64,000 nucleotides of DNA. It comes from Neelides folsomi (lineage: Eukaryota; Arthropoda; Collembola; Neelipleona; Neelidae). Position numbers and translations under genes: made by a program. The first letter of the stretch is position 1, and the number at the start of each line of letters is the position of its first letter. The stretch spans positions 27,187 to 91,186 of the forward strand of contig JAQGBZ010000253.1 of the NCBI GenBank assembly GCA_034687125.1, in the 5' to 3' direction. The notes under the pieces are model-generated. The model was not told where the DNA came from. It saw only the letters and a program-made list of their open reading frames with translations, and made no database searches. Positions 18,178-56,618 of the stretch are shown piece by piece.

Positions 18178-21100
18178 ATGTGGGTCCTTGGAAGGCGGCG
18201 GCTCGCGGAGACGTTTCTGGTCGCCCTCACCCTCTGGCACTCTTCCCAAGCGAACCTCGGTAAGGAACTCTGAATCCATCTTCCTTTAATCTCCCGTGAT
18301 TCCTCCACCTTCAAGGGGACCCAGGCGGAATCATTCCAAAGGCCCTGGTTCAAAAAGTGTTTTGGCCACCGGCCAAGGCAGATTAGCCGACCCATTTTTC
18401 CCATTTTCCCTCTTCGGATACAAGATGAGCCAAATGAGCGCGCACGCGAGGGTCCGAGCAATAGAAAAATAGGAATCCCCCATTAAATTTTATACCGGTT
18501 AGGTCCTGCATGGAGAAAGCTTAGCCGAATTACGAGGCCGGGATTTACGAGGGAGTTAGGACGAGCTCACCGGGGTAGCGGGCTTTGTAATGAGACACGT
18601 GGTCGCGCACACCCTCCGTGACTCAGCTGCCCTTCGCCCATTAAGGGAATGGAAGGGGGATCTTGAGGAGCTTGGGATTACCCGCGGCTTACCTCCGCTC
18701 GCGTGTCCCCCATGCAAATGCTCGTGTGCAGAGGAAAATAATTAGTGAAATTGAACCGGGCCGTTCCCTCACGCGACTCGGAGAATCCTTCCTCAATTAG
18801 CCCCGCTCTTATTGACACTCCAGGGCCATTTATCAGCCCATCATCCTCTATTGATTCCCGATTAGGAGCGCCCAACGGCTCCATCCATCACGATCAGCTC
18901 AAGGAGCCCTGATTGTCTCCCGACCTGATTGGGAATCCCGAGGATGGAGAGTGTCTCTCTCAAATCCTCATCTGTAAGGGGAGCCCATAACTCCAGCACG
19001 ATGAGAAAATCGGATCATCTCCTCAGATTCCGCCCAGCCCATAAATAACCCTCTCCCGCCAAAGCCCCGCACATGCATCATGGCCGTGACGGGACAACAA
19101 ACCTGACTTTCTCCTTCCATTAAGCGAGTCCGATTGAGTTGGCGGGTCGGCCCAACAGCTGCCCGCGTCCCCACTCACCCAGTTTCTCATCTTGGAGGAG
19201 TCTTCCATTTGGCTCTCTCCGAAACTCTCAATATCCCAAACAATTCCTACTATTGTGAGGCTCTAAATATCTCCGCATCCCTTTCTCTCTTTCGCTCACT
19301 ATTATTTCGGACACATTTCTCATTTGACGACTCGGGTCCCATATAAAATTTTACGAGCTCCTCCGACTCCGCGCCCCTCCCACCCCTCATCTTCATACTT
19401 GGGGGATCACGTAGGAGGACAATTTATTCTCCCTCCACACACACACACACACACACAATGTTGCCTCCGCAAGTCTTGTAAATAATAATTCAAGAAGTTT
19501 ACGATAATAAAGGGAGCGGAGATAATTGCGCCCATTGCGGGCCTCCTAGGATTAACGACCGGCGCATAAAAATGATTCCAATTATCTCGACGGATGGGCA
19601 ATGTGTCGAGAGGAACTTCGATCCCGATAATTCCCCAACTGGCCGGGTAATGGGTTCTCGCGGAGGATCCTTCGTATAAAAAAGATAAGTGGGGGTTATG
19701 GACGATCTCGGCCCGCGGTCCATTATTCCCAAACCGCTGACCCGAATGGCCCAAATGACCGGGCCAACTGCCCATAAACCCCCGGTATTTATTGTGGCGG
19801 CCCTCGGCCTCCCACGCCTAATTCCCATACTAATCTCCCCCCACCCTCCGAAGCAACAGCTTGGGCTGGCGGTGGGGCCGATCTCATTACTCCCTCGATA
19901 AAGGGGAATCAAAGTGTCATTGAATGAGGTGCGGAGCGAGAAGTGGATTCCCACTCATTTCCCCTTAATGGGCCCTCCCTGCAGTTGAGTAGATGAACAT
20001 AACCGTTGGACCGGTTTTATTCCTTCTTTGTTCCAGGGTACTTTTGGCAAATCACGGACCTCCACTTGGACCTCAACTACTCCGCCACGGGGAACCGGGA
20101 CAAAAGTACGTCATCTTCATTCTTGAGGATTATTACTACGACCATGAATTTCAGTGTGTTGGAGACAGACTGGAGGCGCCTACCGTTACGCGGAAGGACA
20201 TTTCGGAGACTATGTCTGCGACTCCCCTTTCGCTCTCATTAAATCCGCCATTAGAGCCATGAAGGAGAAAGTCCCCGTCGACCAAGTGGAGTTCATCTTG
20301 TGGACCGGGTAAAAATTCCATCTCCGACAAACCCACTTTACCCATGTTTCTCTTTACGATTATTGCCCCGGGCCCCTCAGGGCTCATTCGAATATGGAAA
20401 ACAAATTGGAATCACAATCTATGCATTCCCTCCCTCTTATTTATTCCCCATTTCGGGGCGGATAAATCAAATGTGAAATGAGGATCTATTATTGACAAAA
20501 CAGTGGAACACAAGTGGAATTCCACAATGGTATTATTTACAAATTGTTAAATGGAGACTTAGAAAATATGGATTAAGAAAAATAGTAGAAATCAATAGAA
20601 ATGACTCAAATGAGTAACCACACATTATCTCTTCCCATCCGAGGCCTGTGGGTTTTAAATTAACTTTTGGTATTCAAAATTCATAATGGTGGTTCGTTTT
20701 GCTGGAGGACAAATGAGTTTAAAGGGTTAAATTAGTCGTAATAGTGTAGCTATTTACATAAAGCGTGCCGTTAGCCCTCCACATACCTTCCATTTGGGCT
20801 GGGAGTGAAAGTTGAATGAGACTCGGGGTCATAATGAGGTTTCCCATTCAACTTTCCCCCATAAACCCCGAGTCCGAGTCCGCTGAGAGAACTTCTCCCG
20901 CCCATTTATCAATATTTAATTCCCGGGATTCCTTTTGATGAGTCGAGATTTGAGTCTCTGGTTGGTGCGAGTGATTTGTGGGCCATTTGAGTGGGAGTGG
21001 ACAGCTAATGGGTCTTGGTGATGCAGGGACTCGATCTCGCACGCGATGCACGGGAGCGAGGATCACTTCAGCCAAGAGGCCGTCTTCCACATCATGACCA

Positions 21101-22871
21101 ACTTGACGTCGGTGCTGAAGCAGGAGTTTCCCTTCTCGAGCATCTACCCCGTACTCGGGAACATGGACTGGCACCCGCGCTACTCCATGGCCCCCCACAC
21201 CGGGCGCTACAACGAGACGATGCACCAGTACGGCCAACTCTGGTCCTCTTGGATCCCTCCCGAGTCCCTCGACACCTTCAGGAGAGGTGAATGAATTGTT
21301 AAGTCTGTCGCGCCCCCGCGGGCCGCTGCATAATTCAAACGGAGGAAAGTGGGCCAGAGGTCCAAGCGAGGAATCAAATATTGAAGCTTCAATTACCTTC
21401 TGAGGAGGTTGATATCTAAATACAATGTTTTACAGGGGGTTACTACGCGATCGAGCGAAAGAACCAGAAGCTCATGCTCCTCATCCTCAATACGAACCTC
21501 TACTACAAGAAGAACTCAAAGATCCGCCCCACCGAGCTCGACCCGGCCGATCAGTTCGCCTGGCTCGAGGGGATGTTGGCCAAGGCGCGAGCCTCCTTCG
21601 AAACCGTCTACATCATAGGCCACATCCCGCCGGGAAAGATGGAGCGGTACATGAGCAGCCGTCTCGGCTACCATGTTTACCAAGAGCAGTTCAACAAGCG
21701 GTGAGGAATCCTAAATCCACTTCCAATCCTTTCCTCCTTCAATGTCAATGCCTTAAATTGTCAATGGTCCCAGGTACTTGGAACTCGTCCGAGAATACCA
21801 TTCAGTCATCGCAGGGCAATTCTTCGGCTTTTTCCATTCAGACTCTTTTCGAGTCTTTTACGAGAAAATGGGTGAGTCCCATCAAAGGAATTGTCCTTTG
21901 ATAATTTGCATTAGATACCATTTACAGCTTGAGAATGAAAGATTTGGATTTGTTTTAACCATCAGAATTTGTTTGGATGATCATGTATGGAATAGTTTGA
22001 AAATGTGGAGATGTTTTAAATGGGTGGTTTTTAGATAAACACAAAGGGAAGTTTTTGGAGAGAGACCCAATCTCGTACCTGTTCATTGCCCCGGCTGTGA
22101 GTCCGAGAAAATCAAGCATCGCGGACGAAGTTGGGCCCAACAACCCCGGCCTGCGGCTCTACCAGTTCAACACAACTTCCGGGCAGATCTTCGACTACCG
22201 CCAGTATTACCTCAACTTGAGTCTTGCGAACGAGAAGAACGTGGCGGACTGGAAGATCCTCTACAACTTCACGTCTTACTATAATCTTCCCAACGTCTCG
22301 GCCGTCTCGCTCTCCGATCTCGCCTTTGATTTCATGGGGAGGTCTGAGAAGCAAGCGGAGCTCTTTTACAAGTAAGCTCTACATCATTGAAGGGGTGAGT
22401 GGGGATTGGAGGAACAATTAGACTCAAGTGCTTCGGCATGATAAGATCTCGAAACGATCTTCCACTTTCATAATACAAACTTTAATCCCTTTTCATATCC
22501 TTTTAAATTTTCTCAATGATTGTGGAAAGGCTTAGGAAGCATCATTGAATTACGAGAAAGGTTTGGGAATAAGCTCCCCAATTCGCCCTTGTTCTTCCCG
22601 TCATTGTTGATCCGCCACTTGACGGCTTGTCCTTTGCAGGTATTATGTAGCGAACTCGGTAGGATACGACGACCCGCGAAACTGCAAGGACCTCTGCAGA
22701 CGAACCCATTTCTGTGTCATCACCAACATTGACTACCAGGACTACGAGCGGTGCATTCAAACCGTCCTTGGGACCTTCGGGGTGTCGGCGGGGAGGCGGG
22801 TCGCGAGCTGGGCCCTCCTCCTCCTTCTCCCTCACATGGGGAAGTTCCTGTTCTCAAACTTTCCTAATTAA
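18178..22871 (+). CDS. SMPDL3: SMPDL3-like secreted phosphodiesterase, two active-site histidines replaced
   Basis: Exons: 18178-18259, 20037-20105, 20155-20308, 21027-21286, 21436-21700, 21774-21871, 22035-22371, 22640-22871; 498 residues, all junctions GT..AG and in frame. Residues 1-25 form a signal peptide (RRR then a hydrophobic core). The calcineurin-like metallophosphoesterase domain follows: TDLHLD with metal ligands D35 and H37; WTGDS (D103); GNMD at 146-149 where the family has GNHD; IIGHIP (H251); GFFH at 295-298 where the family has GHTH. The ASM-type C-terminal region follows, with YYLNLS, paired cysteines and several N-glycosylation sites, then a hydrophobic tail (WALLLLLP) resembling a GPI-attachment signal, as in SMPDL3B. 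Active relatives hydrolyse phosphodiester or nucleotide substrates extracellularly or in lysosomes. Loss of the general-acid His and one metal-ligand His suggests little or no catalysis here. An acceptor at 18166-18167 implies an upstream untranslated exon. Confidence 0.93.
19436..19457. repeat. Dinucleotide microsatellite (CA)11
   Basis: Eleven uninterrupted CA units inside intron 1 (18260-20036) of the SMPDL3-like gene. Confidence 0.95.
20820..20874. repeat. 10-bp inverted repeat in an SMPDL3-like intron
   Basis: GACTCGGGGT at 20820-20829 is matched by its exact reverse complement at 20865-20874, with a 35-base spacer. It lies in intron 3 (20309-21026). It may be a chance hairpin. Confidence 0.5.
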
Positions 22872-52150: not shown

Positions 52151-55100
52151 ATGTCAAGATACTATCAAAGACCGGAGAATGCCCTTAAAAAGGCAAACGG
52201 TAAGAAATCGGCGGATTGAATACTATTCATTAATATTTGTCAATTAAAAAGCCTTTCGCGGAGGCCCCCTCAACTTCCCTCCTTTCCCTTGTAATACTTT
52301 ATAAAAAATCCAGATGTGACATTGTCATTAACCTTTTACTCTCAATAGGAGTTGGGTGATTGGACAAGGGTGATACTTGATGCTTGGGTGCGGATTGTAA
52401 TTACCGACCTTTTTTTCGTTTCAGAGTTCATCGAGGTGGGGAAGCCCACGAGGGCTCTTGACACGCTCTACGATGTTATCAAGGGAAAGAAGCATCGTGC
52501 TTTTAGCGAAAAGGTCATCGAGCCGATCATGCTCAAGTATCTTGAATTGTGCGTGGACCTCAAGAAGCCACATACAGCTAAAGAGGGTCTCTACCAATAC
52601 CGGCTCATGTGCCAATCGGTAAACCGCGCGACCATATTTTATATACCTACTAATGGATGCTATGATTTCATGAACTAAATAAGTTTTACATATCTTATTT
52701 ATGAATTTTAGGTCAATGTTGGCCTCTTGGAGAAGGTCATTAGAAGTTTCATTAAGATGGCCGAGGAACGAACCGAGCTTGCAAGAGATTCCCTTAAGAA
52801 TAAAGTACTTTCAGAGACACAACAGGAAATTGTTGAAGTTGATGATTTGGATAATCTCTCAATGGCAGAGATGACCCTTCTTAAGTAAATTTTATTCAAC
52901 AGCCACATTTACAAATTAATATGATAAATTATTTAATAAATATCTTTCCATGATCAGTGTCATTACGGAAGAACAAGCTCAAGAACGGAGCGATAGAGCT
53001 GCACTCATTCCTTGGGTCAAGTTTCTTTGGGAATCATACACCCAGTGCCTAGACTTACTTAGAAACAATGCTCGTTTGGAGAAACTCTACCACGACATTG
53101 CACAAATGGTAAATTACTATTTTTAAATATTCTTATATATTAAACTATACAACAAGAATATATCGGGCAGCATCAATCAATCAAATGCTATATAATATAT
53201 ATATATATATAATAATTAATTTTTAGGCCTTTAAATTTTGTCTGAGCTACGGTCGAAAGACGGAATTTCGTAAACTTTGCGAACGACTTCGCAAACATTT
53301 TGATGACATCGTGAACCGTGCCAGCACACAAATGAACAGCATTGACTTCTCATCTCCTGAAACTCAGCAACTAAATATGGAAACTCGGCTTTCTCAGCTC
53401 GACTCTGCCATTACAATGGAGCTGTGGCAAGAAGCGTACAAAGCCATTGAAGACATCCATTTGCTCATGAACCAGTCGAGGAAGTCTCAGACGAGGATGA
53501 TGGCTTACTATTATCAGAAACTGTCTCTGGTCTTCTGGAAGGCTGGGAATCTTCTCTTCCATGCTGCGACGCTCCTCAAGTACTACATGCTGTGCAAAGA
53601 CATGAAGAAGAATGTCTCTCAGGAAGAACTTCAGAGGTCTTAATTTCAATTAATTTTTTATATAAAACGATTTAGTTTAAGATTATTACATTTATATTAT
53701 TTTTATAATAATATTAAAAATCATATATGTAGTACTTTGTACTTATAAAATTTATATAATTAACATATTTTTTATAATTTAGAAATGCTTCTCAAGTTGT
53801 TCTTGCTACATTGGCCATACCATTCCCTGTTACACATCCCGAATTTGAGCGGTTTGTGGAGACGGACAAAGGAATGCTTGAAAAGTCTCAGAAGCTGGCC
53901 ACTCTCCTGTTCTTACCTCAACCACCCACGCGGTCGTCTTTGATCAGGGATTTGAACAGATATGGCGTCCTTTCAAATGCCATTCCAAGATTGCAGGACC
54001 TCAATGTCCTCTTGGAGACTGAGTTTAGTCCATTGCAGTTGTGTGGTCAAGTTGACATAATTTTGAAGGAAGTGGTGGCTTCAGAAGAAGCTGAATATTT
54101 GGTCCAATACGTTGAACCATTGCAAGATGTTGCTCTTGTTCGCCTTATTAAGCAAATATCTCAGGTATGGTTCAATCATTATTTGCTTATTTTTTAAAAA
54201 GAATTATTTTTACTTATTCGAATCCATATGAAAAGATATTTATTTTATAATAATTTTTAGGTCTATCAAAGCATTGATTATGATCGTTTTCTCCAATTGA
54301 CGGTTTTTACTACCCAATCGCATTTGGAACAACTTCTTGTGGACTCTGTTCGATACAATGATCTTCAGATCACAATTGACCATCGTTCCAACTGCATCAG
54401 ATTTGGTTCTTCATTGGCTGAGGCATCTCGTGAAGATTTGCCAGAGGGTCCACATCTTCAAGCAATGCCATCTGAGAATGTTCGTCTTCAGCTGGTCAAT
54501 GTCTTCAATTTCCTTGAGGATACTATTGACATGATCAACCCTCCTGCCGATTTGGTAATTTTTTTAATAAAAGCTTACAGTATAAAAGGAAAATATTAAT
54601 CATATTTTAAATCTCCACTAATAAAATTTATCTGTTTAGATCAACGAAGAAAATTTGAGAAACAAGATTGTGAACCATTACCTCATGACTGAACAACAAT
54701 ATCACATTAAAATTCTTCAAAGACAAAAGATCATTGCTGAACGGCGAGAGGTTCTTGAGCAAACTGCCGTTGATCGCGAGAATGAGGAGAAACGTAAGAA
54801 CGAACAGATGATCAAACAGCAACAAATGATTGAGCAGAAGCGTCTTGAGACGGAGCGGGAAGAGCGCGAAAGACGTCGTATTGAAACGGAGAAGAACGAG
54901 TTCAATCAACGGCGTTTGATGGACCGTCTTCAAATGATGTCCAATACAAAGATTGGACAGAAGGTTCGAGAGAAGCTGAAGGAGGACGAGAACCTCGATG
55001 TTGAGACGTTCATGATACGCCAACAAGAAGAACTAGCCAAGGAGGCAAAGGAACATTTGGCCCGAATGCGTGCCCAAGAAAAACGCATTGACCATATGGA

Positions 55101-56618
55101 AAGAGCCAAGCGGATCGTTGAGATTCCGATCATTGAGAAGCATATGAATGATAAGAAGGACAAAGAGCGGAGGGAATGGGAGGCCCATGAGAAGGAGCGA
55201 ATTACTCATTTGATTGAGGAGAGGAAATTCGCCGTTGCGAACAGGGATCGAATGAAGAGGATGAAAACGGACAAGGATGGTTTCCTTCGAACACTCCTCG
55301 AATCGAGGAAGCACGAGTATCAGGCTCGGCTTGTAGCTTTCGAGCAACGATTTAAGGAAGTGAAGGCTCAGCGTCTTAAGGAACGAAAGGACCAACGGAA
55401 ACATGACAAGAAGCGAGTGTATTATGAAGAAAAGGCCAAGGAGGAGGCTCGAAGAGAGGCAGAGATCAGAAGGATTCAAGATGAAAAGGAAAGAGAGGAA
55501 CGAGAGAAAACTATGCGAGAAATGGAAGAAAAGAATAGAATTACGCTTGAAAAGCAACTGGCTAAAGAGCGTGAACTCGAAGAGAGGTTCGAAAAGGAAC
55601 GTCGAATGGGATCTGCGGAACCGAGAGCGGCCGTGGCTTCTGATGGCTGGCGAGCTGCTGGGCCAAGAGGAACAACTGTTCCTTCTACAGATAAGCCACC
55701 AGTCCCGGCGGCCGCAGCAACTAAATGGGTGCCTAGGGCAGTTGCTCAGAAGAAGGCTATGTTGGAGCAGGGAATTAACCCTGATGAGGTTTTGGATGCT
55801 CCAAGTAAATGGCGGGAAGAAGAAAAGGGCCGATTTGATCGGGAGAGAGACTATGGGAACAGAGATTGGGACAAAACTAAGACTAGAAATGCGGGAATGG
55901 TAATTGTAATAACCAATATTAGTAAAGATAATTTTACTAAAAGTATATTAATTGTTTTTAAATTTGGTGCATTATTTTGTCTCTTAGGGAGATCGAGAGT
56001 CTTCTCGAGAAATTCCACGTGAACGAGAGATGATGAGCCGGGATAGAGAAGGCATGGGCCGTGAACGGGATGGGATGCGTGATCGAGACGGAATGGGTCG
56101 TGAGCGGGATGGGATGCGTGATCGAGAGGGAATGGGCCGTGAGCGGGATGGGATGCGTGATCGAGACGGAATGGGTCGTGAGCGGGATGGGATGCGTGAT
56201 CGAGACGGAATGGGCCGTGATCGCGAAGGAATGGGCCGTGATCGTGAAGGAATGGGCCGCGATCGCGAAGGAATGGGCCGTGATCGCGAAATGGGGAGAG
56301 AGCGAGATTTCGAACGACGAGATTTTAATGAGACGTCGTCTTGGCGAACTGCTGGTGGTCCTCCGAGCAATCAATCGAGTGGACGACGCGATGAAGAATT
56401 CAGACGTCCAGGTCCAGGCCCAGATGGTGGTCGTGGAGGTGGAAGGGATCGCGATGGGCGAGAACGCGATGCTCCTTTCAGGTATACATTAAGCCCATCG
56501 TCAGAATTTACTATTTAAATATGAGACCCTATTTTACTTTTGATTTGATTGTGTTTTTAGACCAAGAGAAGAACGTGATCGGCGCGAACCCTTTGGAGAG
56601 GATAATTGGAGAAAATAA
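52151..56618 (+). CDS. EIF3A: Eukaryotic translation initiation factor 3 subunit A
   Basis: Ten exons: 52151-52199, 52425-52618, 52712-52884, 52958-53108, 53227-53636, 53783-54164, 54261-54554, 54640-55899, 55988-56481, 56561-56618; 1154 residues against about 1380 in human. eIF3a is the scaffold of eIF3, which loads mRNA and the initiator complex onto the 40S subunit. The N-terminus matches the family ([10 protein letters not shown], then [14 protein letters not shown]). Helical repeats and a PCI domain occupy about residues 50-500 ([31 protein letters not shown]). Exon 8 (about 552-971) is an extremely charged Glu/Lys/Arg coiled-coil region. Exon 9 carries an Arg/Asp/Gly/Met repeat corresponding to the DDDRGPRRG-type repeats of vertebrate eIF3a. 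The shorter length is mostly due to fewer C-terminal repeats. Confidence 0.97.
53185..53220. repeat. AT-dinucleotide-rich tract in an EIF3A intron
   Basis: A run dominated by TA dinucleotides sits just upstream of the acceptor of exon 5 (exon from 53227). It takes the place of a normal pyrimidine tract. Confidence 0.8.
56051..56290. repeat. Coding tandem repeats in EIF3A (4 x 39 bp, then 4 x 21 bp)
   Basis: Four nearly identical 39-base units (56051-56206) encode [14 protein letters not shown]. Four 21-base units follow directly (56207-56290) and encode GMGRDRE. Copies differ by only a few, mostly synonymous, bases. Both unit lengths are multiples of three, so the frame is kept. The array lies in the disordered C-terminal tail. 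Confidence 0.95.

Follow-up and report, generated by a model that had tools for sequence, protein, structure and literature searches.

The question raised by this locus is whether the protein it encodes, a relative of SMPDL3A and SMPDL3B in which two active-site histidines have been replaced, still works as an enzyme. The gene lies on the forward strand at 18178-22871 of the 64,000-nucleotide stretch of Neelides folsomi DNA analysed here (the window; C253:27187-91186 of an assembly of 75.1 Mb in 840 contigs), and its eight exons encode 498 amino acids. All introns have GT-AG borders and the reading frame is open across the 498 codons. Exon 1 (18178..18259) carries the start codon and a signal-peptide-like N-terminus (MWVLGRRRLAETFLVALTLWHSSQA) with its hydropathy maximum at residues 9-19, exon 2 (20037..20105) the metal-ligand motif D35-x-H37 (TDLHLD), and exon 3 (20155..20308) the motifs CDSP, with D73, and FILWTG, ending two bases into the codon for G102. 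Exon 4 (21027..21286) supplies D103 and the retained H107 (GDSISH) and then GNMD, with M148 in place of histidine; exon 5 (21436..21700) contains LNTNLYY and GHIPPG, the latter with H251 retained; and exon 6 (21774..21871) contains GQFFGFFHSDS, in which F296 replaces the first histidine of GHxH and H298 is kept. The bulk of the ASMase_C subdomain is encoded by exon 7 (22035..22371), for which an alternative in-frame acceptor would move the exon start to 22065 and remove ten codons. Exon 8 (22640..22871) supplies the end of ASMase_C, conserved cysteines, a hydrophobic, GPI-signal-like C-terminal tail and the stop codon. The tail comprises 38 residues beyond C460 with a maximum at 476-486, as judged by hydropathy only. 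The protein, which has seven N-glycosylation sequons, is probably secreted through its N-terminal signal and held at the membrane by the tail, which makes it a candidate for GPI anchoring; the tail agrees with the GPI anchoring stated for SMPDL3B in a passage of PMC13157387.

The family assignment is consistent across several comparisons. Pfam profiles for Metallophos (E 5e-8, 34 bits) and ASMase_C (7e-30, 104.3 bits) both match above cut-off, with the calcineurin-like phosphoesterase domain preceding ASMase_C. The best matches among solved relatives are SMPDL3B (E 3e-89, 303 bits), SMPDL3A (4e-82, 280 bits) and ASM (4e-41, 145 bits). All 12 distinct solved sequences that match at E <= 0.01 belong to the ASM/SMPDL3 family, eight SMPDL3 sequences coming first (269-303 bits) and four acid sphingomyelinases following (135-145 bits). 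Identity to SMPDL3A and SMPDL3B is 38% to each over ~410 residues, and the protein has in common with them the domain order without a saposin domain, the C-terminal ASMase_C subdomain and most active-site residues. No saposin domain is found in the gene model, where the signal-like region is followed by residues 21-27, at which the SMPDL3 matches start. The catalytic and C-terminal domains of SMPD1 (acid sphingomyelinase) are likewise homologous, whereas the protein described here differs from SMPD1 in having neither the saposin domain nor two of the histidines. A tree of five sequences and 287 columns, without support values, puts it on the SMPDL3 side of a long internal branch to two ASM-type proteins from the same assembly. 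In this tree, which carries no support values, it falls outside the pair of SMPDL3A and SMPDL3B, a position such as would be expected of a common invertebrate SMPDL3.

The two replacements were pointed out in an earlier note on this DNA, which flagged the interval 21027-21871, corresponding to exon 4 through exon 6. Its description of an SMPDL3-type protein that reads G-N-M-D at residues 146-149 and G-F-F-H at 295-298 was borne out by the codons, by the residue numbers and by alignment with the solved relatives, as was its account of an intact frame, splice sites and glycosylation sites. The Met148 codon (ATG, 21163-21165) occupies the position of the GNH histidine in the solved homologues inspected, and the codons of Phe296 (TTT, 21829-21831) and Phe297 (TTC, 21832-21834) occupy those of the histidine and x of their GHxH; both the M148 and the F296 codon are mid-exon, in exons 4 and 6. 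M148 and F296 align with the GNH and GHxH of SMPDL3A, SMPDL3B and ASM, and both motifs are present in all seven of the solved relatives whose alignments were inspected (7 of the 12 matches). Thus the protein has GNM where SMPDL3A and SMPDL3B have GNH, M148 taking the place of the histidine typical of SMPDL3, and GFFH where they have GHxH. The alignment confirms that D35, H37, D103, N147, H251 and H298 remain, as the earlier note had listed, and adds H107 of the GDxxxH loop. Six of the seven metal ligands (D, H, D, N, H, H, H) are therefore present, F296 marking the missing first histidine of GHxH. H107 aligns with the donor histidine of SMPDL3A/B and of ASM 5hqn, and D73, invariant with SMPDL3A/B, is the putative counterpart of the donor's partner Asp249 of mouse ASM.

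Across SMPDL3A, SMPDL3B, the two ASM-type proteins of the assembly and one solved ASM there are 31 invariant columns, 27 of which are retained here; the residues lost are H148, R202, H296 and D355. When a Microvirga homologue is added the invariant columns fall to 20, of which 18 are retained, H296 and D355 being lost. The losses are not significantly enriched in the active site (2/6 columns, against 2/25 elsewhere; one-sided Fisher p = 0.16). The Microvirga protein reads GNND with its GHTH intact. Phe at 296 is thus unique among the sequences compared, which are thin samples, and the GNH histidine is replaced in one further homologue. Small insertions after motifs II to IV are seen relative to SMPDL3A/B, the sole comparison. 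As a sign of remodelling they were given little weight, the largest of them hinging on the choice of acceptor and SMPDL3A/B being the only reference.

What the two replacements would mean for catalysis depends on the roles of the residues in ASM, whose structures establish the metal ligands and the donor; motif alignment equates F296 with H457, M148 with H319 and H107 with H282 of the human enzyme. The earlier note took the GNH histidine to be the catalytic proton donor, a premise that is not supported in that form. Passages of PMC5062611 do propose H319 of human ASM as the donor and link H319Y to severe disease, whereas the mutants of mouse ASM described in parts of PMC4961792 favour His280, together with Asp249, as the likely donor and give the GNH histidine, His317, a probable role in substrate binding. 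In the same account, the H317A mutant is only slightly reduced in activity on bNPP, while its activity on liposomes is abolished. M148 on its own need not kill the enzyme, since H107 is retained, the effect of H317A on bNPP is mild in that account and a bacterial homologue carries GNN.

F296 is the more consequential change. According to portions of PMC5062611, the two zinc ions of human ASM are bridged by D278 and have H457 and H459 as their other axial ligands, with N318 and H425 as equatorial ligands of one zinc and D206 and H208 of the other; we read H457 as an axial ligand of the first of these. By correspondence, one metal site of the present protein has its full set of ligands (D35, H37, D103 and H298), and the other (D103, N147 and H251) is short of its axial histidine, now F296. 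The second metal would then be held weakly or be absent. The main chain of H457 also holds the catalytic water in the structure discussed in PMC5062611, and a Phe at 296 could still supply that contact. That the enzyme is dead may reasonably be supposed, chiefly because F296 replaces one of the seven metal ligands.

A possible, if doubtful, alternative is that the protein is altered and still active, hydrolysing small phosphodiesters with one zinc or a loosely held second metal, with H107 as donor and a shifted substrate preference. H107 and six of the seven metal ligands speak for it, as do the bNPP activity of the mouse GNH mutant and the Microvirga protein, in which GNND occurs with an intact GHTH; the small insertions near the motifs add to this weakly. 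Set against it are the removal of an axial metal ligand by F296 and the behaviour of other mutants of ASM-type enzymes: activity of human ASM is abolished by H425A or D206A (as given in part of PMC5062611), and bacterial RsASML with H280R, equated with human H427R, is inactive on pNPPC (as given in part of PMC4140839). Since SMPDL3A is described as hydrolysing nucleotides (in a passage of PMC4961792) and SMPDL3A and SMPDL3B as cGAMP hydrolases (in one of PMC13157387), it seems unlikely, by analogy, that these activities would be unchanged in a protein with GNM and GFFH.

The explanation that we hold somewhat more probable than the remainder together is a folded, extracellular and catalytically crippled SMPDL3, GPI-anchored or secreted, which would retain one metal, bind phosphate ligands with little turnover and be kept for another role. 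Phosphate-bearing ligands such as nucleotides would still be admitted to the site and turned over slowly, and what selection maintains would be binding, or contacts with a membrane scaffold, instead of catalysis. A family member offers a parallel for contacts made without catalysis: the phosphodiesterase mutant H135A of SMPDL3b still bound insulin receptor isoforms and caveolin-1 in the experiments excerpted from PMC6584700. The protein is thus probably a weak or dead enzyme kept for another job. The term 'secreted pseudoenzyme' used in the earlier note was reasonable as to a dead enzyme, mainly on account of F296, and overstated given that H107 is retained; 'secreted' is better put as 'secreted or GPI-anchored' in view of the hydrophobic tail. 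The observation of the two lost histidines was right, and the interpretation placed on it, though reasonable, leaned on a role of the GNH histidine about which published accounts disagree.

Several features bear on how long such a protein has been under constraint. The GC content at third codon positions is 0.78, and that of the introns of the same gene is 0.47. The branch to the protein measures 0.77, compared with paths from the common node of 0.88 (0.63+0.24) to SMPDL3B and 1.03 (0.78+0.24) to SMPDL3A in the tree of five sequences and 287 columns without support values, and because it is no longer than those paths there is no sign of accelerated decay. Together with the open frame and the splice sites, these values speak for selection on the gene during most of its history, although the two replacements cannot be dated from them. 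Recent loss of function, in a gene or allele whose sequence as yet shows no damage, is an unlikely account. The loss of R202 and D355, two further residues invariant in the family, would fit it, as would the presence in the assembly of six ASM-type loci with intact motifs, though their substrate may differ. It sits poorly with the full frame, all splice sites, the third-position GC bias, the 27/31 invariant columns retained and the unlengthened branch, and also with the fact that each replacement takes several base changes, over which time no stop or frameshift arose.

An assembly or sequencing error at both sites is very improbable. M148 could result from a pair of single-base indels that lie a few bases apart (21157-21168) and restore the frame between them. 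Reasoning from the codons, however, His to Met otherwise takes three base changes, and His-Thr to Phe-Phe takes at least four if the ancestor had GHTH; at 296-297 two codons have been replaced at unchanged length, and the remainder of the gene is open. The surroundings look sound as well, with Pfam matches for 8/10 of the neighbouring frames tested in the window, including NF1-type PH and RasGAP, TCP1 chaperonin and eIF3a domains, and the window is ordinary animal genome.

That His-bearing, functional forms are made from alternative exons or from a second SMPDL3 gene we consider the least probable of the explanations. When all six frames of the window were scanned for GNH[DE] and G[H/Q][T/S/G/H]H, no GNH[DE] and no GHxH frame came up, only two unrelated GQ.H matches, although motifs split by introns or with another x would escape such a scan. 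Within these limits the window showed no alternative exon with the usual motifs. In the assembly, a protein search gave 16 matches (22/22 candidates scored), eight of them in the SMPDL3-type gene, and an ASMase_C profile search gave seven (9/9 scored), two of them in that gene; neither search found a second SMPDL3-type gene in the 75 Mb, and the present gene appears to be the single one of the assembly. An exon-by-exon search of this kind is, admittedly, blind to assembly gaps. The remaining matches fall into six loci (C498, two on C534, C115, C316 and C477), in each of which the one frame compared matched a solved sphingomyelin phosphodiesterase better than SMPDL3. All six have GNHE, and all six have HxH as the last motif (GHSH, GHGH, GHGH, GHTH twice and one HTH, in front of which an intron presumably interrupts the codon for Gly). 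The search for an active paralogue proposed in the earlier note therefore has a divided outcome: neither of the two assembly searches turned up a further gene of SMPDL3 type, and six ASM-type loci carry both motifs.

These loci differ from the SMPDL3-type gene in other respects. Saposin domains seem by eye to be present, while none of the four separate saposin-like frames matched a Pfam profile at E 0.01; in the C115 frame the match to ASM begins at chain residue 41, ahead of the catalytic domain. Third-position GC is 0.30 to 0.48 (one frame per locus) versus 0.78 in the SMPDL3-type gene, and in the assembly at large GC is 0.28 to 0.42 across seven sampled 2-kb stretches, six of them on other contigs. 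The contigs of the ASM-type loci, being lower in GC, may not all derive from the same animal, and either a heterogeneous genome or a mixture could be at hand.

A naturally occurring SMPDL3 whose site is broken, with an intact gene and no second copy found, would offer a direct way to test for non-catalytic functions, in a family where some protein contacts of SMPDL3b are independent of the phosphodiesterase site (in the part of PMC6584700 noted above). If the protein were active instead, it would show that neither a complete metal site nor the GNH histidine is indispensable in this family. A bolder version of the favoured explanation, which we offer as speculation and consider distinctly improbable, is that the only SMPDL3 of this lineage, once an ectoenzyme that cleaved nucleotides, has become a membrane-anchored protein with one metal that captures extracellular nucleotides or cyclic dinucleotides, leaves them uncleaved and might serve as a receptor, carrier or sponge. 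The interest of the case is modest, because single members of enzyme families commonly lose catalytic residues. As a functional parallel only, and not as members of one group, VPS29 and the DNA polymerase B subunits may be compared: these calcineurin-like folds are without catalysis and retain the phosphoesterase fold for binding; both are intracellular and have lost more of the site than the protein described here.

The open-licence literature searched contained no report on pseudoenzymes of SMPDL3, sphingomyelin phosphodiesterase or calcineurin-like phosphoesterase, nor did the subject appear in the titles and abstract openings among the papers listed by wider searches. Viral contigs gave no relative among 14 stretches, and 72,556 plasmid records gave one, the Microvirga protein. 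Two short peptide patterns picked out one relative (L023) among 35 stretches of genome contigs; it has GNHE and GHTH and resembles, by eye, an intron-bearing eukaryotic gene within a MAG. As a separate observation, one contig of the Neelides assembly, 15,157 bp long, shows an order of putative mitochondrial genes that would fit an arthropod: its single COX1 match (E 3e-126) has an open frame when read with the invertebrate mitochondrial code, and around it are frames which by eye resemble ND2, COX2 and ATP6.

For exon 7 of the SMPDL3-type gene, two candidate acceptors lie in frame with ten codons between them (window 22035-22065), and use of the second would remove an insertion relative to SMPDL3A/B. 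At three of the acid-sphingomyelinase (ASM)-type loci elsewhere in the assembly, the motif reads GDFVH or GDFIH (L009:3947; L010:1703 and 5244, - strand), with Asp and His spaced one residue closer than in the GDxxxH of SMPDL3 and solved ASM. This shorter spacing may shift the position of the donor histidine.

Among distant homologues, a metallophosphoesterase of a Microvirga plasmid (L031:306-1679; NZ_CP016620.1), an SMPDL3 relative, carries GNND instead of GNHD, with GHTH intact. An acid-sphingomyelinase-like gene lies on a contig titled as a Verrucomicrobiaceae MAG (L023:1501-2901; JAIYDP010000366.1) and appears to be interrupted by introns; the stretch is probably eukaryotic DNA inside a bacterial bin.

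Elsewhere in the window, at 56018-56290, 39-bp (21-bp) units are repeated in tandem; in one reading frame this array translates as repeats rich in Arg, Asp, Glu, Gly and Met. It directly follows a long open frame without a Pfam match (54640-56019), downstream of frames matching eIF3a, and because of this position the array is possibly the repeat tail of eIF3a.
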